Shown here: positions 52,626 through 59,175 of the stretch, in pieces
Layout of the letters: every line of letters starts with the position of its first letter
How positions within the stretch are numbered: position 1 is the first letter of the stretch
Notes under the pieces: model-generated
What the model saw: only the letters and a program-made list of their open reading frames with translations
Database searches by the model: none
What the model was told of the DNA's origin: nothing
Made by a program: the position numbers and the translations under genes
Assembly (NCBI RefSeq): GCF_018687635.1
Contig: NZ_CP061300.1
Coordinates: 1,385,424-1,449,423 of the forward strand
Length of the DNA stretch: 64,000 bases
From: Polynucleobacter sp. MWH-Braz-FAM2G
GTDB lineage: Bacteria; Pseudomonadota; Gammaproteobacteria; Burkholderiales; Burkholderiaceae
Reading direction: 5' to 3'

Positions 52626-52658
52626 AAAAAGCCCCTAGTTTTACTTAGGGGCTTTTTT
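52626..52658. terminator. Bidirectional terminator (ilvD / copper operon)
   Basis: The stem AAAAGCCCCTA/TAGGGGCTTTT with an 8-nt loop has T-runs on both strands, between the convergent ends of ilvD and the PCuAC gene. Confidence 0.92.
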
Positions 52659-52683: not shown

Positions 52684-53154
52684 TTAGTGCTTCATTGCAC
52701 CCATCGCATTCACTGGCATCTTAACTTCAACCTCACCAGCTTTTGCAAACTTCAGCTTTACTGGCACAGTTTCACCAGCAGCAAATGGAGCTTTGATATT
52801 CATAAACATTAAATGCAAGCCACCTGGCTTTAATTCAACAGAGCCACCTGCTGGCACAGGAATATCTTTCAACTGACGCATTTTCATGACATTGCCTTCC
52901 ATTGCCATCTCATGCAATTGAACTTCACCAGCAACAGGCGAGCTAGCAGAGATCAATTGATCGGCAGCACCTGGATTCTCAATTTTCATAAACCCTCCTG
53001 CTACTTGTTGGCCCGGAGCGGTAGCACGGGTATAGGCATTTTCAATTTTGATTGCATTAGTTGTAACTGTTTTAGTGACACCCTGTGCATAAGCCACGCC
53101 AAATAATGTCAGCCCTGCAAATGCAAAAATGATTTTTAATAAGTTTGTTTTCAT
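52684..53154 (-). CDS. Periplasmic copper chaperone PCu(A)C
   Basis: A 156-aa secreted cupredoxin-like chaperone that binds Cu(I) and helps build the CuA site of cytochrome oxidase. The diagnostic H-x10-M-x21-H-x-M pattern is exact: H81, M92, H114, M116. The signal peptide ends near AYAQ (24). The start is ATG 53154 behind GGAG; the TTG five codons upstream is part of that Shine-Dalgarno. It ends the five-gene operon that begins with the DUF2946 gene. Confidence 0.95.
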   Translation of the reverse strand: MKTNLLKIIFAFAGLTLFGVAYAQGVTKTVTTNAIKIENAYTRATAPGQQVAGGFMKIENPGAADQLISASSPVAGEVQLHEMAMEGNVMKMRQLKDIPVPAGGSVELKPGGLHLMFMNIKAPFAAGETVPVKLKFAKAGEVEVKMPVNAMGAMKH

Positions 53155-53192
53155 GCTTATATTCTCCAAGTAAGTATTTAATTCTTCAATGA

Positions 53193-53669
53193 CTAAGATT
53201 TAACAATCAAAGCACTTTGCAATTTCTGAAAATCCACCAATCCTGTTTTACGGATGGCTTTGCCACTTTTATCAATCACAATAGTAGTTGGCGTTTCCCC
53301 ATGCCACTGCGGATCAATCTCATATCTCAGGCGCTCATCAAATGGAGCAGCTATATAGTAATTATTTGCCTTATCCAGCCCTGCCTTACTCAACATTTTC
53401 TTGATGGAGTCCATTGAAACATCATCAACCTGAATAAAAACGATTTTCGCGTTTGGATTATTTTTTACAAACTGACCCCACTGCGGCATTTCCTTTACGC
53501 AAGCTGGACAAGTGACACCCCAAAAGTGAATAGCCATTGGCGCACTATTTGCGCTCTTGATAATAACTTTCCAATCCCCAGCTTGATAAGACTTCAGAGG
53601 GGTGGTATCTGCTAAGGCAGATCCACAAATCGATAGGGTAAGGATAAAAGCCAGCCAATATCTTTTCAT
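53193..53669 (-). CDS. TlpA-like periplasmic thioredoxin
   Basis: A 158-aa secreted thioredoxin-fold protein. The signal peptide ends at ALA (20); the redox motif is C54-P-A-C57 in HFWGVTCPACVKEMPQW. TlpA/ScoI-type proteins reduce copper-binding cysteines or deliver reductant for CuA assembly. Its ATG overlaps the stop of the Asp-box protein by four bases, and the PCuAC gene follows by 38 bp, which suggests that it keeps Cys of its operon partners reduced. Confidence 0.92.
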   Translation of the reverse strand: MKRYWLAFILTLSICGSALADTTPLKSYQAGDWKVIIKSANSAPMAIHFWGVTCPACVKEMPQWGQFVKNNPNAKIVFIQVDDVSMDSIKKMLSKAGLDKANNYYIAAPFDERLRYEIDPQWHGETPTTIVIDKSGKAIRKTGLVDFQKLQSALIVKS

Positions 53670-54925
53670 TGCTTACTTCCAATATTGATTAATTGATAAC
53701 CATCATCACGCGTTAACCAGGATAAAAATACTTCACTACCTTTTGGCATGAGAAGCGGATGATCGCTATACCCTGTTGTACTCGACAATATTTTAGGGGT
53801 CGTCCAAGTATCGCCATCATTAGAAGACTCTTTCATATACACCGATGACTTTTTGCCATCAAATTCTTTCCATACTAACCACACCTGCCGTCCCAATGAC
53901 ATGAGGTATGGCCTAGATACATTAGCCCCTTCTGCGCCAACTCGCATGGGTTTTGAGTATGCAATACCTTGGTTGGTGGAATTGGCATAAAACACGCCAG
54001 AACGTTTACTGCCTTGGGTATACCAAGCAACATGAAATTTTCCACTGCCAGATACTGCTATCGATGGGCCATGATGCGGACATGCATCCGTCTTCCAATC
54101 ATCATCGGCTACCTTGCGTATTGGACCACTACCTGCGATTGATATGACTTGACTCGCCTGATCCCGAATCCCACCAGGAAATATTGCTCTGTATGCCACT
54201 ACAGGATTGCCTTGGGGATCAAGACTACTACCGATGCGACAGCATTCACAACTACTTTCATTGGCGATACGCTCAGCCTGAAAAGATTTGCCACCATCTT
54301 GAGAAAAGCTATAGGCTATAGATCCTCCCAGACGCTTCTCACCCCCCTGTTTTGCTGCAGCAACTAGTCGCTTATCAATCCAGGAGATAAAAATCTTGTC
54401 ATCAGGCATTATCAAGACCGATGGAAAGCGTTGACTTGAGCCATCCTGAACTAGGGTTGTTGGCGCAGAAAAGGTATTACCCCCATCAGAAGATCGGGAT
54501 GTATTAATTTGCGCATTCCAGTTGGAGTCCTTAAAAAATGCATAGGCTAAAAATATTCCACCCTGCTTATCAACAACGATTTGTGAACGTGCATCAGAAC
54601 CTGTATCTAATGATTTGCCATGTTCAGCAATTTTTACTGCTGGTGAGAATGTTTTTCCCAAGTCGCTAGACTGGGCTACAGAAACCACCCCATTAGCCGT
54701 CCACGCTAAAAGCAACTTACCATCCAGAGTGAAAACTGGGGTAGCTGCATTTGCACACTCTAACCCTACGCTCTGACAAGTGCCGCCCACCTTAGCTGAA
54801 GAACTACCAACTATATGAGAGGAATGATCCATCTGCGCTTGCACGCCCCCAGCGCCAATCAGCACACTCAATAGAAGTGCGCTGAATAACAATGGTGTCT
54901 TACGGAAATGGAAATATTTGGTCAT
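53666..54925 (-). CDS. Asp-box propeller with CECC and CPHH motifs
   Basis: A 419-aa secreted beta-propeller with four BNR/Asp-box copies (QSSDLGKTF, RSSDGGNTF, SFSQDGGKSF, SSNDGDTW). The signal peptide ends near VQAQ (31), exposing a MDHSSH N-terminus. Unlike sialidases, it has a Cys pair C50/C57, a C226-E-C228-C229 motif and C282-P-H284-H285, all plausible soft-metal ligands. It lies 2 bp after the TonB-dependent receptor and overlaps tlpA, with PCuAC downstream, so I infer a copper-binding or copper-releasing periplasmic protein. The sialidase label would be misleading. Function unproven. Confidence 0.85.
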   Translation of the reverse strand: MTKYFHFRKTPLLFSALLLSVLIGAGGVQAQMDHSSHIVGSSSAKVGGTCQSVGLECANAATPVFTLDGKLLLAWTANGVVSVAQSSDLGKTFSPAVKIAEHGKSLDTGSDARSQIVVDKQGGIFLAYAFFKDSNWNAQINTSRSSDGGNTFSAPTTLVQDGSSQRFPSVLIMPDDKIFISWIDKRLVAAAKQGGEKRLGGSIAYSFSQDGGKSFQAERIANESSCECCRIGSSLDPQGNPVVAYRAIFPGGIRDQASQVISIAGSGPIRKVADDDWKTDACPHHGPSIAVSGSGKFHVAWYTQGSKRSGVFYANSTNQGIAYSKPMRVGAEGANVSRPYLMSLGRQVWLVWKEFDGKKSSVYMKESSNDGDTWTTPKILSSTTGYSDHPLLMPKGSEVFLSWLTRDDGYQLINIGSKQ

Positions 54926-54927
54926 TA

Positions 54928-57126
54928 TCAGAAGATGATACGTGCACCAACAGAAATTGCTTGTGGCATACCCAATACATACTGGGTATTACTAGATCCA
55001 GTGCCAAAAGTAATGTATTGACGATTAAACAAGTTCACGGCTGAAGCATAAATAGTTGCATTTTTTGTCACCTCATAGTTTGCACGTAAACCCACAACCG
55101 CATAGGCGGGCACTCCATACAAATTTTTTGTATCCAACCATGAACTACCCACATAACGAATGGTTGCCGTCAAACTAGCGTTAGGCGCTGGATAGTAAGT
55201 GATGCCACCCCCCAAAATATTTTGCGGCACACCCCCTACCTGCTTGTTAATAGGATCGCTCGTAGCGCTCATGGTTAACTTAGTACTGGTGAAGGCGTAG
55301 TTTGCATCAGTTGCCCACTGTGAGTTGATGTCATGATGAAACTGGAACTCAATACCTTGGCTCAAGAGATTTTGGTTATTGGTGTAATAACTAATATTAG
55401 TAGAATTACAAATCCCAACATTACCAGTGCCCGCCAAGGGATTGCCAGTTGCACCGCATAAGCTTTTTGCTAAGGCAATGTCCGTAGCGCTTTTTGATGA
55501 AAGGCTGTATGTGGCTACTGCATTTTGAATGTAGTTGTTAAATGCGGTTAACTGTGCAAAGCCTCCTTTCCAGCGATAGTCTGTACCAATCTCATAACCC
55601 GTCATTGTTTCTGGAATCAGATTGGGGTTGGCGAAGCTATAGCCCGTAGAGGAACCATAAGAGCGTAAGGTGTTATTCATGCCGGGAGCATGGAAGGCCT
55701 GGTAAGCCGCCGAACGTAAATCCCAGTCTTTACTTAACTTATACAAGAGGCCTAATGTAGGACTAAATTGGGTCTTGCTTTGGTTAGGGACATTTTGAAA
55801 GGCAGGATTTATGCCATTAGGGCCGGCATTGTAATTCGTGGGTGTCTGACTATTCCATTGATCTATTCGCGCTGCCAAGGTTGTCTCTAAAGGGAAGGAA
55901 TCTGCCTTGGATTTCAATTGCCCCATTAAGCCATAGAAAGTTTGCTGGCCTTGAGCATAGTTCACAGCGGCTGATGTGCCATTGGTGTTCAAGTTATTTG
56001 TTTGGTTTGATCCAGCAATATTTCGAGCATCTACGCCCACTACATATTGATCAATAATTCCTGTTACTTCTTGGGTATATTGAGCAGAGGCGCCAACCGT
56101 ACTATAGGGGTCTTTATAGTTTGCATTGATGTAGGGGTAGTTATATGGAGCAGTAGCACCTTTAGTCCCTAAGGTGGATGTAGTGGAACCATTCTGCTTA
56201 TTAAAGCCCGTATTCTCGTAGAAGAAATTTACATCTACCTTTGACTTATCGTCCAAACGGGTTGTTGTGCCCCCAGCCACATCGGTCTCTTGCATGATAT
56301 TGGTTGCAAAGGCATAGCCTGAGGAAAGATCGGACATGGTGTGGTAACCCACACGAAAAAATCCATTTGTATCTTGGGTGGCTTTAAAGTAACCCTGCAA
56401 TCGAACATTGGAGTTATGCGAGGCGGCATCACCCTGTCCATTCTTGATGCTAGTCGGAGAAGCTGGTGAGATCGTCGCAATATTTTGATAGCCATCGGTA
56501 TTAAAGTAATCAGCCGAGAATCTCAATTGAAGATTTTCAGAGGCGATAAGATCCTTTGAGGCGGCCACATTGCCGGTTCCAAATGCGCCATAGCTAGCAG
56601 ATACTTCTTGCTGGCTATTGACTGGGGTTTTCGTCTTAATATTGATTACACCGCCCATGCCGTAGTTACCCCACAAACTAGAGACACCACCACGAATAAA
56701 TTCCACCGAATCAATAGAGGACATTGGAACCAAATTCCACTGCACCGTTCCATAAAAAGCATCATTTGCTGGAACCCCATCAATCAACACCAAAGTTCTA
56801 GCATTACCAAGGCCGCGGACGTTAATACTTTGACTGGTTGGATCCTTTTGGTAGTAAGGCGTGTCATTCAAAATTACGCCAGGCACATTTTTTAATATTT
56901 GATCAATAGTTTGATCTGGTGCAATTTCTAGAACCTCTTTAGATAGAACTGTGGTGTTAAGAGGAATCTCATCCAATGGTGTTCCTGAACGAGTAGCACT
57001 CACCACCACATCACCTAGCTTTTGATTGTAGTCAGGCGGTGGCGCAATTTGGGCGTGTGCATTTATTAAAACCGATCCAAATAGCATGCCAACGCATGCA
57101 CTAATTTTCTTTTGCTTAAACAACAT
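54928..57126 (-). CDS. TonB-dependent receptor, probably for copper
   Basis: A 732-aa outer-membrane receptor. The signal peptide is residues 1-25; a TonB-box-like DVVVSATRSG and plug domain (TIDQILKNVPGVILND, VRGLGNARTLVLIDGVPAN) precede a 22-strand barrel ending in ARIIF with terminal Phe. Ligand not defined by sequence alone; the operon (DUF2946, PCuAC, TlpA, Cys-rich propeller) argues for copper or a copper complex, as in OprC/NosA. GGAG precedes the ATG. Cobalamin or a siderophore is the alternative. Confidence 0.92.
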   Translation of the reverse strand: MLFKQKKISACVGMLFGSVLINAHAQIAPPPDYNQKLGDVVVSATRSGTPLDEIPLNTTVLSKEVLEIAPDQTIDQILKNVPGVILNDTPYYQKDPTSQSINVRGLGNARTLVLIDGVPANDAFYGTVQWNLVPMSSIDSVEFIRGGVSSLWGNYGMGGVINIKTKTPVNSQQEVSASYGAFGTGNVAASKDLIASENLQLRFSADYFNTDGYQNIATISPASPTSIKNGQGDAASHNSNVRLQGYFKATQDTNGFFRVGYHTMSDLSSGYAFATNIMQETDVAGGTTTRLDDKSKVDVNFFYENTGFNKQNGSTTSTLGTKGATAPYNYPYINANYKDPYSTVGASAQYTQEVTGIIDQYVVGVDARNIAGSNQTNNLNTNGTSAAVNYAQGQQTFYGLMGQLKSKADSFPLETTLAARIDQWNSQTPTNYNAGPNGINPAFQNVPNQSKTQFSPTLGLLYKLSKDWDLRSAAYQAFHAPGMNNTLRSYGSSTGYSFANPNLIPETMTGYEIGTDYRWKGGFAQLTAFNNYIQNAVATYSLSSKSATDIALAKSLCGATGNPLAGTGNVGICNSTNISYYTNNQNLLSQGIEFQFHHDINSQWATDANYAFTSTKLTMSATSDPINKQVGGVPQNILGGGITYYPAPNASLTATIRYVGSSWLDTKNLYGVPAYAVVGLRANYEVTKNATIYASAVNLFNRQYITFGTGSSNTQYVLGMPQAISVGARIIF

Positions 57127-57207
57127 TTACTGCTCCACAATTAATTACGACAACGTATTGTTTGATTCGTTGCCAACTACATAGCTAGGCGCTATGCCCT
57201 AATTTGA

Positions 57208-57579
57208 TTAGGCTTGTACTGGTGGAGCTGCTGAAGGTGGGGTTACCCAAACGGCAAGTGGTTTGGGTGATTGGTAGAAAAGCTGTGGCAGCAAAGCTAA
57301 AGTCTGCGGCGCCTTAAATGTGAGGCTTGTATTAAATGCTGGGGTGATGCTATTTTGAGCTACGCAATAGGGACAAGGCTGCATTTGATCTGCAACTTCT
57401 TGATCATCTGTCTGAACATCGATTTGCATCTTGCTGCCATCAACCGAACAAATCTCCATTGCAAAACCTTGACCATGCTTAGCAAGCGAAACTGCTTGAG
57501 AAACAGCGGGCGCAAGCGCACTCATTGCAATCGCTAAGATGGCAATCCAATGAATGAGGCGGTTTTTGAAGAAGTTCAT
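57208..57579 (-). CDS. DUF2946 family protein
   Basis: A 123-aa secreted or anchored protein with an N-terminal hydrophobic segment (about 9-30) and three Cys: C44 in MEICSVDG and C69-P-Y-C72 in MQPCPYCV. This matches DUF2946, a family commonly found beside copper-related TonB receptors. It is the first gene of the operon, 81 bp upstream of the receptor. A metal-binding or sensing role through CPYC is plausible. No good Shine-Dalgarno is seen; a small palindrome sits at the start. Confidence 0.85.
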   Translation of the reverse strand: MNFFKNRLIHWIAILAIAMSALAPAVSQAVSLAKHGQGFAMEICSVDGSKMQIDVQTDDQEVADQMQPCPYCVAQNSITPAFNTSLTFKAPQTLALLPQLFYQSPKPLAVWVTPPSAAPPVQA

Positions 57580-57585
57580 GGTGAA

Positions 57586-57598
57586 CCGATTTTATCGG
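57586..57598. promoter_or_regulatory. Palindrome at the start of the copper operon
   Basis: CCGAT-TTT-ATCGG, perfect 5-bp arms, lies 7 bp before the DUF2946 ATG where an operator or translational hairpin could control the operon. No known copper-regulator consensus matches. Confidence 0.35.
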
Positions 57599-57618
57599 AT
57601 TTTTATTGGTCACAAATG

Positions 57619-57645
57619 CAAAAAGGAGGTTTTCACCCCCTTTTC
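57619..57645 (-). terminator. Terminator of tctA
   Basis: AAAAGGAGG pairs with CCCCCTTTT with one mismatch; on the minus strand a TTTTTG tract follows. It lies about 35 bp after the tctA stop, with a second hairpin AACCCA/TGGGTT (57653-57673) in between. Confidence 0.6.
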
Positions 57646-57678
57646 ACTCGCAAACCCAGATTTTGATTGGGTTAGATC

Positions 57679-59175
57679 TTATGCAGCAGCTTTTTTCTTA
57701 CCAATTAACTTGCCAATAAGTGGCCAGAAGAGGAGCAATAAAGCGATAGAAGTAATGCCAGCCACCAAGTAGTTGGAGAAGAATACATCCAAACTACCTT
57801 GTGAGATCAGCATTGACTGACGGAAAGAATCCTCTGCACGGTCACCCAATACCAGAGCCAAGACCATCGGCGCCATCGGGTAATCAAGCTTCTTGAAGAC
57901 GTACCCAAGCACACCAAAGCCCAACATCAACCAAACGTCAAACGTGGCATTGTGAACGGTATAGGCACCTACCGCACAAATCACAATAATCACTGGAGCG
58001 ATGATTGAGAATGGAATTCTTAAGATGGAGGCAAACAGTGGCACGCAAGTTAAAACAACAAACAAACCAGCCAAGTTACCCAAGTACATACTAGCGATTA
58101 ATCCCCAAACAAAGTCTGGCTTCTCAACGAAGAGCAAGGGACCTGGTTGCAAACCCCAAATCAATAAACCACCCAGCAATACCGCTGCAGTTGGTGAACC
58201 AGGAATACCCAAAGACAACATTGGGAGAAGGGCTGATGTACCAGCCGCATGAGCAGCTGTTTCTGGTGCAACGATTCCTTCCATCTTTCCGGAACCAAAC
58301 TTGTCGCCCTCTTTCGATACACGCTTAGCTACACCGTAAGCCATAAAGGACGCAGGAGTGGCGCCGCCTGGTGTAATACCCATCCAGCAACCAATCAAGC
58401 AACTACGCAATGAAGTGGCCCAGTACTTAGGCAACTCTTTCCATGTCTCCAAAACAACTTTGCCACGAATCTTCGCCGCAGCACCTTGGAAGGCCAAACC
58501 CTCTTCCATGGAAAGCAGAATCTCTCCAATACCAAATAAGCCAATAACAGCAATCAGGAAGTCAAAGCCACGCATCAACTCAGGATGACCGAATGTCAAA
58601 CGCAATTGACCTGTAACAGTATCCATACCAACAGTTGCCAAGGCAAAGCCAAGCATCATCGCAGAAATTGTTTTGAAAGGAGAACCCTTATTCATACCAA
58701 CGAAGCTACAGAAAGTAAGGAGATATACAGAGAAGAACTCTGGAGGGCCAAACTGTAATGCAAACTTCGCCACCAATGGCGCCAAGAAGGTGATCATCAC
58801 AATCGCAAAGAAAGCGCCAACAAATGAAGATGTAAATGCAGCTGTCAATGCTTCACCGGCTTTACCATTACGAGCCATAGGATAACCATCAAAGGTTGTC
58901 GCTACCGACCAGGGTTCGCCAGGGATATTAAATAGAACAGATGTGATTGCTCCACCAAACAATGCGCCCCAGTAAATACAAGACAGCATGATGATTGCGG
59001 AAGTTGGTGGCATTGTGAATGTCAACGGCAACAGGATAGCAATACCATTTGCACCGCCAAGACCAGGCAACACGCCGATGATCACACCGAGGGTTACACC
59101 AACCAACATCAGCAATAAGTTAAAGGGTGTCATCGCAACGGCAAAGCCGTTGAATAGAGCGCTAATTTCTTCCAA
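57679..59175 (-). CDS. tctA: TctA large permease subunit
   Basis: A 498-aa membrane protein with about 11-12 helices, the large subunit of a tripartite tricarboxylate transporter. GVIIGVLPGLGGANGIAILLPLTF and GIPGSPTAAVLLGGLLIWGLQPGP are the family's duplicated motifs. The start is TTG 59175 behind a strong AAGGAG with 7-bp spacing. It is the last gene of tctC-tctB-tctA. Confidence 0.96.
   Translation of the reverse strand: MEEISALFNGFAVAMTPFNLLLMLVGVTLGVIIGVLPGLGGANGIAILLPLTFTMPPTSAIIMLSCIYWGALFGGAITSVLFNIPGEPWSVATTFDGYPMARNGKAGEALTAAFTSSFVGAFFAIVMITFLAPLVAKFALQFGPPEFFSVYLLTFCSFVGMNKGSPFKTISAMMLGFALATVGMDTVTGQLRLTFGHPELMRGFDFLIAVIGLFGIGEILLSMEEGLAFQGAAAKIRGKVVLETWKELPKYWATSLRSCLIGCWMGITPGGATPASFMAYGVAKRVSKEGDKFGSGKMEGIVAPETAAHAAGTSALLPMLSLGIPGSPTAAVLLGGLLIWGLQPGPLLFVEKPDFVWGLIASMYLGNLAGLFVVLTCVPLFASILRIPFSIIAPVIIVICAVGAYTVHNATFDVWLMLGFGVLGYVFKKLDYPMAPMVLALVLGDRAEDSFRQSMLISQGSLDVFFSNYLVAGITSIALLLLFWPLIGKLIGKKKAAA

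Follow-up and report, generated by a model that had tools for sequence, protein, structure and literature searches.

Background

CruR of Bordetella pertussis is a DUF2946 leader protein whose nascent chain reads copper via a CXXC motif; it needs a C-terminal RAPP, which keeps bfrG on, and the operon of this TonB-dependent receptor (TBDT) is controlled through Rho (PMC9426467; here and below, published work is cited from excerpts of the papers). Homologues of cruR lead operons with TBDT, PCuAC and AhpC/TSA genes (PMC9426467). Here we describe an operon headed by a DUF2946 gene in Polynucleobacter sp. MWH-Braz-FAM2G (chromosome of 2.17 Mb), which occupies the minus strand at 57579-52684 of an analysed stretch of 64 kb, hereafter the window. 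The operon itself, in which the leader is followed by genes for a TBDT, an Asp-box propeller, a TlpA-like thioredoxin and the chaperone PCuAC, is an ordinary one of known kind. Its leader, by contrast, has two unusual traits, and these seem new: its terminal AAPP motif is conserved in most leaders of the genus, and the leader end pairs with the Shine-Dalgarno (SD) sequence of the next gene. We read the locus as a copper-acquisition operon led by a nascent-chain copper sensor, with the leader end masking the SD of the receptor gene, and give this reading a probability of roughly 0.62. The features on which it rests are:

57208..57579, minus strand: DUF2946 leader gene, CruR family, type without the motif arginine (PF11162, 58.0 bits, cut-off 23.7)
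57220..57231, minus strand: AAPP codons GCA GCT CCA CCA, at the place of the CruR RAPP arrest motif by sequence comparison
57222..57228, minus strand: anti-SD arm GCUCCAC inside the AAPP codons (minimum-free-energy fold, pairing probability 1.00)
57132..57138, minus strand: GUGGAGC, SD of the receptor gene (GGAG at 57136-57133) and partner of the anti-SD arm (minimum-free-energy fold)
54928..57126, minus strand: TBDT gene (PF00593, 118.8 bits; PF07715, 83.1 bits)

A leader of the CruR family ending in AAPP

The window leader consists of an N-terminus that resembles a signal peptide as judged by eye, the motif CPYC, 44 residues, AAPP, three further residues and the stop. Its PF11162 score above the cut-off, the CXXC motif and the spacing of 44 (about 45 expected) agree with CruR, as does, from gene order, its place as first gene of a predicted operon with copper genes. 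The C-terminus, however, carries AAPP instead of RAPP, and because of this replacement we speak of a leader that works like CruR and not of a canonical CruR. A search of NCBIfam with the leader and the propeller gave no lead. The preliminary description had counted DUF2946 among the five genes of a copper acquisition route; as a step of that route it was not borne out, as the family comprises nascent-chain copper sensors in leader position, and its published leader role rules out a transport component.

Among the leaders of the genus, the motif is AAPP in 36 (that of the window included), TAPP in 3, RAPP in 17, and RGPP, QAPP and HAPP in one each. Order-wide, PF11162 matched in at least 125 of 349 genomes, of which loci L110-L139 and L153-L219 were used. 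In other genera of the order, arginine is present in 82 of 88 leaders with a recognisable motif and AAPP in none, while two more leaders lack the motif. Nor does AAPP occur in another 68 leaders whose motif is recognisable, taken from the phylum, the class and named records (for phylum and class, the PF11162 loci returned plus 40 fetched). The 39 leaders with AAPP or TAPP, hereafter A-type, form a single clade, supported at 99/91 in a tree that rests on 67 rows and few columns, and keep the spacing of 44 between CPYC and xAPP in 39/39 cases. The ratio of nonsynonymous to synonymous differences (pN/pS) over xAPP is 0.035 in these leaders and 0.024 in the RAPP types, and over the CXXC stretch it falls to 0.006. 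Since the ratio over xAPP is this low, AAPP is kept as protein, and it is under strong purifying selection. Sequencing error or decay is ruled out as the origin of AAPP by the 36 genus leaders, the supported clade and pN/pS. In the last three codons of A-type leaders pS is 0.06 and pN 0.31, the low pS being a sign of RNA constraint.

The replacement of the arginine has a known consequence in B. pertussis. There, the R139A variant of CruR, which corresponds to the AAPP form, served as arrest-dead control in vitro (PMC12992588), and R139A combined with A140S abolishes bfrG expression (PMC9426467). Because AAPP is thus the arrest-dead form of that CruR, arrest at the window AAPP is in doubt, and the same assays speak for a rival reading, in which the AAPP leader is a dead relic and the operon constitutive or under another regulator. 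We regard such a relic as very improbable, given a motif nearly invariant in 39 leaders, the pN/pS values of both motifs, the constant spacing, and the match of every A-type leader end to the RNA model described below.

Two further observations concern the motif. A Pro-Pro pair just upstream accompanies 42 of 47 Arg-less leaders from several lineages: in the genus it is present in 37/41 Arg-less leaders versus 2/18 with Arg (Fisher p 6e-9), in other genera in 5/6 versus 16/82 (Fisher p 0.003), in tests whose rows are not independent of each other. Outside the order, several DUF2946 leaders end in RASP instead of RAPP (L256-L260, L301, L307, L309, L313, L325, L327 and L337).

Pairing of the leader end with the next SD

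The 108-nt fold in the window has an energy of -34.1 kcal/mol (z -4.2, 0/200 shuffles as low), with GCUCCAC paired to GUGGAGC. In a swap test, the duplex energy between the codons from motif to stop and the 22 nt that precede the following start was compared for real and swapped partners in 10,000 permutations. Only leaders with a spacer of 40-300 nt were admitted, which retained 17 of the 19 R-type leaders and 74 of the 86 from other genera. Among A-type leaders, 33/39 had a start that passed the SD rule; L031 and L079, for which the rule picked a wrong start, were kept in this test and left out of alignment and folding tests, leaving 31. Real partners paired more strongly than swapped ones in the 33 A-type leaders (-12.85 vs -11.11 kcal/mol, 0/10,000 as low; reversed codons p=0.16) and in 74 leaders from other genera of the order (-11.37 vs -9.41, 0/10,000 as low; reversed p=0.16), where thinning to 30 dissimilar tails gave -10.95 vs -8.72, again with 0/10,000 as low. 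A replication set of 62 leaders fetched later and treated by the same rule, from the same order (named records) and from other orders and classes, gave -12.93 vs -10.30 (0/10,000; reversed p=0.55), and thinned to 33 leaders -12.81 vs -10.22 (0/10,000 as low). From this set 24 of 92 new proteins without CxxC/xxPP were left out, the 12 of them printed ending in RASP plus 2-3 residues, as were two without a next gene and four with spacers outside 40-300 nt.

Nulls with synonymous codons pointed the same way, with Wilcoxon p values of 5e-4 for 31 A-type, 0.049 for 17 R-type, 1e-3 for 74 other and 1e-3 for 62 new leaders, and under a stricter start rule the other genera retained 41 leaders with p=0.004. 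Ordinary gene pairs served as controls: 140 from the own genome gave -7.20 vs -7.01 (p=0.17), and a stricter mixed set of 94 with cross-strand competition between genes -10.21 vs -9.97 (p=0.21). The SD core of A-type leaders, positions -12 to -7, was paired in 81-100% of the 31 leaders. When whole leaders were folded, the SD paired with the motif codons at a mean probability of 0.61 in A-type leaders, compared to 0.31 after synonymous shuffling, and at 0.47 compared to 0.34 in 12 R-type leaders. The anti-SD design is thus well supported statistically in the A-type leaders and the two wider sets.

Several results nevertheless weigh against our reading, as do the arrest-dead state of the AAPP form in B. 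pertussis and the published role of Rho discussed below. The effect is borderline in the 17 RAPP-type leaders of the genus (-9.55 vs -8.62, p=0.052), and under the stricter start rule, which retained 12 of them, p was 0.17. The own-genome pairs with gaps of 40-110 (83 of the 140) gave p=0.07, and 6/140 ordinary pairs were as strongly paired as the window leader. A looser control of 195 ordinary pairs, with genes called strand by strand, reached -11.34 vs -10.52 (p=0.0001), the 16 window pairs within it showed -9.21 vs -8.00 without a significance test, and the stricter 94-pair control gave -10.39 vs -9.58 (p=0.004) when reversed. Taken as real-minus-swapped differences, the leaders range from -1.7 to -2.6, compared to -0.2 in the controls of 140 and 94, -0.8 in those of 195 and of reversed 94, and -1.2 in the 16 window pairs. 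In the 41 leaders of other genera, furthermore, 36 nt upstream of the motif paired with the SD about equally in absolute energy (-12.50 vs -12.67), and whole-leader folds gave a mean of only 0.33 and a median of 0.13. Finally, a ribosome mask on the motif alone hardly freed the SD (0.17 to 0.21), and a wider mask led to partial opening, with a rise above 0.3 in 12/31 leaders, where masking in itself must raise accessibility somewhat.

Covarying hairpins between motif and receptor start

Between the anti-SD arm and the SD lie three hairpins:

57198..57212, minus strand: H0 (CCUAAU/AUUAGG), which contains the stop codon (both partners of one pair changed in 9/31 leaders)
57179..57197, minus strand: H1 (GCAUAGC/GCUAUGU), supported by covariation and the window fold
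57149..57174, minus strand: H2 (GGCAACG/CGUUGUC), with double changes at 4 of 5 pairs counted

They covary in the 31 A-type leaders, 96.7% of cells being paired. None of 500 shuffles reached the observed pairing, double changes or covariation score, and one of 500 reached the observed pair types. A covariance model built from these leaders matched 41 places across 101 genomes (E up to 0.01), which, assigned to the leader list by hand, are the ends of 39/39 A-type leaders and of two RAPP-type third copies. Eight of the matched A-type leaders were outside the model, the weakest being L079 with E 0.007.

An element of this strength, without an Rfam match at E up to 1 (window 56900-57700) and kept before different downstream genes, could also be the sensor itself, as a riboswitch or protein site, with the peptide in a secondary role. 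All 41 model matches, however, lie on ends of DUF2946 genes, and the conservation of CPYC and AAPP is at the protein level, so that we find an RNA sensor of this kind distinctly improbable.

A possible part for Rho

In the sampled profile of the window, a C>G bubble of 25.6% extends over roughly the final 80 nt of the leader. The median maximum is 26.9% in A-type leaders, 22.4% in R-type leaders and 24.4% elsewhere; among six neighbouring genes, the receptor gene reaches 20.5% and the other five 10.3-11.5%. Such a bubble, and the experimental precedent of CruR, would fit an attenuation by Rho only, in which a rut site is protected by the ribosome on the leader and the SD pairing is incidental; indeed, the published mechanism of CruR is Rho-dependent termination, and long spacers were judged incompatible with translational coupling (PMC9426467). 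Attenuation by Rho alone nonetheless predicts neither the cognate pairing of leader end and SD nor the covarying hairpins, and the C-richness is partly due to the Pro codons. We consider it unlikely, if still a serious contender. Both mechanisms can work together: since the C>G bubble is also present, the message, once closed and untranslated, may be a target of Rho.

Proposed mechanism

The pairing of the leader end and the hairpins suggest a SecM-like switch, in which the copper response, the arrest at AAPP and the direction of switching are putative. At low copper, the ribosome would pause at the C-terminal xAPP of the leader, AAPP in this case. The paused ribosome would cover the codons that otherwise pair with the receptor SD, allowing receptor, propeller, TlpA and PCuAC to be made. 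Upon binding of copper to CPYC, the ribosome would finish and leave, the last codons would close over the SD, and the masked, untranslated mRNA would then be open to Rho. A ribosome held at xAPP would cover, by its footprint, the stretch from motif to stop. Because the pairing stretch is this same ribosome-covered stretch, arrest would open the next SD and release would close it.

More tentatively, and at somewhat less than even odds, we extend this switch, and not only its application to the window, to the whole DUF2946/CruR family: the leader end would be the anti-SD, the arrested ribosome a lid removable by copper, and Rho a second layer, with the AAPP clade keeping the switch without the arginine. 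The Arg-less form could be maintained either by a new kind of stall, at PPSAAPP, or because ribosomes move slowly across the proline codons, which are at the same time the anti-SD. So far, the way in which copper reading by the nascent peptide of the CruR family becomes expression is given as Rho termination only, and for one species (PMC9426467). If true, a family-wide anti-SD at the site of arrest would bring CruR, CutF and SecM-type switches together, and the AAPP clade offers a natural test of whether arrest needs the RAPP arginine.

Probable copper acquisition and the products of the operon

The three genes behind the receptor gene are:

53666..54925, minus strand: Asp-box/BNR propeller (PF13088 BNR_2, 40.4 bits, cut-off 31.4)
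53193..53669, minus strand: TlpA/ResA-like thioredoxin with a CPAC motif (best Pfam matches 1-4 bits under the curated cut-offs)
52684..53154, ATG start included, minus strand: PCuAC copper chaperone (PF04314, 138.3 bits)

Copper acquisition for cytochrome oxidase, as claimed in the preliminary description, is likely the best reading of these genes, because DUF2946 leaders head copper operons, the sole PCuAC of the genome is encoded here (Pfam searches of the source genome found one PCuAC, one COX2 and one SCO1), and the operon recurs in relatives. What fell away from that claim is DUF2946 as a step of the route and the gene order as evidence for it. The TBDT would carry a copper chelate across the outer membrane; the propeller, with its Cys and His residues, would handle the chelate in the periplasm, where the thioredoxin partner probably keeps its cysteines or the metal reduced; and PCuAC would then receive the copper destined for the CuA site of cytochrome oxidase. 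The substrate of the receptor and this flow of copper through the products are both putative. PCuAC has solved homologues and shows the H-x10-M-x21-H-x-M motif exactly as the preliminary description had stated.

An import of something other than copper, be it heme, cobalamin or another metal chelate, would accord with the best NCBIfam match of the receptor, the heme/hemoglobin subfamily TIGR01785 (182 bits, below the 317-bit cut-off), and with the suggestion that some DUF2946-like leaders may serve other metals (PMC9973294). We hold it to be improbable, as opposed to copper, in view of the genome's only PCuAC lying in the operon and of the other leader-headed cassettes of the family, which carry PCuAC or YcnI (DUF1775).

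The receptor is neither CrtA nor OprC. Compared with the CrtA structure (PDB 9RVQ), its best stretch covers residues 31-184, the plug, at E 1e-9 and 40.7 bits, and no row named OprC appeared among its solved-structure matches at E up to 1. The PepSY_TM neighbour typical for CrtA is absent, the next genes being those for propeller, TlpA and PCuAC. The published CrtA network used an alignment score of 180 (PMC12914433). A search of open-access literature joining Polynucleobacter, copper and TonB gave no lead. Furthermore, the receptor (54928-57126 in the window; L047-L090) is far more variable than the neighbouring genes. Its identity to that of the window among 23 relatives is 81-91% in 8, 63-70% in 4 and 54-60% in 11, and the divergence spans the whole barrel. 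The receptor of L057 is 91% identical and that of L058 57%, yet DUF2946, propeller, TlpA, PCuAC and ilvD are nearly the same. This variability suggests allele swapping.

Homologues of the propeller (E up to 1e-15) occur in 18/321 genomes of the class, the own genome included. Among 13 neighbourhoods, a TBDT gene lies ahead of the propeller on the same strand in 7 and divergently in 1, all 8 Pfam-confirmed, and TlpA follows it in 10, if the fusion in L142 is counted. The fused gene (L142:4854-6557) comes immediately after a TBDT gene and encodes propeller and TlpA-like domain as a single protein of 567 residues. Seven propeller residues are invariant across 13 distant homologues (C226, C228, C229, R230, C282, H285 and H298), and with them the motifs CxCCR and CPxHGP; a sequence comparison with solved structures gave no match at E up to 1. 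The TlpA-like protein scores far below the NCBIfam cut-offs, and its CPAC cysteines are invariant. Judged from these sequences, propeller and TlpA may be read as a periplasmic metal-handling pair, the metal being suggested by the neighbouring genes. The propeller, with CxCCR and CPxHGP, and its TlpA partner form a candidate copper-handling pair, of which we found no description in open-access literature.

Synteny and organization of the locus

A DUF2946 gene is present in 53/61 genomes of the genus and in 6/40 other genomes of the same search. For synteny, 60 loci around DUF2946 matches were compared, 55 from the 53 genus genomes and 5 from outside. DUF2946, a receptor of the window family, propeller and TlpA occur together in 24 of these 60, and 23 of the 24 also have PCuAC and ilvD, which amounts to the full five-gene order, window locus included, in 23/61 genus genomes with the source genome among them. 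Hence the check proposed by the preliminary description, the same gene order across genomes, came out positive at 23/60 loci, though the block between DUF2946 and PCuAC is modular. Of the remaining 32 genus loci, some truncated where a contig stops, 24 carry PCuAC and 14 carry ilvD, and the middle cassette is made up of other TBDTs, a protein of 340-350 residues with an initial CxxCGC stretch and without a Pfam match, YcnI (DUF1775), or nothing. Because the block of TBDT, propeller and TlpA is swapped or absent in relatives while DUF2946 and often PCuAC stay, the order is no evidence for a succession of import, capture, reduction and delivery, to which it had been thought to point.

In some genomes, two or three cassettes, each headed by DUF2946, stand in tandem and combine AAPP/TAPP with RAPP leaders: L052 (G023), L062 (G057) and L063 (G019). 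A DsrE-like small protein recurs in alternative cassettes (L052:9397-9825 by Pfam, L089:3624-4034 by eye).

The arrangement of five genes on one strand, with gaps of 81, 2, -4 and 38 bp in order, was confirmed by reading frames and Pfam, and the flanking terminators of the preliminary description were also found again:

52626..52657, plus strand as listed by the terminator scan: terminator hairpin between the converging ilvD and operon
57618..57647, minus strand: terminator-like hairpin between tctA and DUF2946, by fold

The latter (57647-57618) is missing from the terminator scan and was found by folding (-18.1 kcal/mol, z -4.8, 0/200 shuffles as low). In 37/39 A-type leaders (about 57580-57596 in the window), the 40 nt before the start contain a -10-like box, which in 29 ends 9 nt ahead of the start codon. 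None of the 39 has an SD of -5 kcal/mol or better before the leader gene. The mRNA of A-type leaders may be leaderless.

Comparison with known systems

With CruR-crtA(bfrG)-crpH of B. pertussis the window operon shares a DUF2946 leader with CXXC and an xAPP at about the same spacing that heads a TBDT gene, and a function in copper supply for heme-copper oxidases (PMC9426467, PMC12914433, PMC13038864). It differs in that AAPP replaces RAPP, the receptor belongs to a different family, the place of the PepSY_TM protein is taken by propeller, TlpA and PCuAC, and the spacer measures 81 nt, compared to 162 nt in B. pertussis. Masking of a ribosome-binding site is not mentioned for CruR in the main text of PMC9426467, nor is an SD, a stem-loop or a secondary structure mentioned in PMC12992588, and searches of open-access literature, judged by titles and the beginnings of abstracts, brought up no description of an anti-SD leader end for CruR.

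CutF-cutO of Rhodobacter capsulatus also combines a DUF2946-like sensor with a proline-rich end, and an mRNA stem-loop masks the cutO SD. However, CutF switches expression on with copper, the stem-loop is described as intergenic, and no strong stall was seen (PMC9973294). The Pcu operon of Bradyrhizobium, which has a cruR homologue at its head (PMC9426467), and TccA of Caulobacter resemble the window operon in joining a TBDT with a chaperone of PCuAC type that serves the copper supply of the oxidase (PMC9426467, PMC12617631). The excerpts name no pair of propeller and TlpA for these systems, and neither a sialidase nor a BNR protein is named in PMC12617631.

SecM-type switches differ in their signal, which is secretion for SecM and presumably a metal for the window leader. 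MifM and VemP are further arrest-peptide switches of this kind. What the window leader would have in common with SecM-secA is the principle of the switch itself, as there, too, a ribosome held near the leader end unmasks the next ribosome-binding site (PMC10502375).

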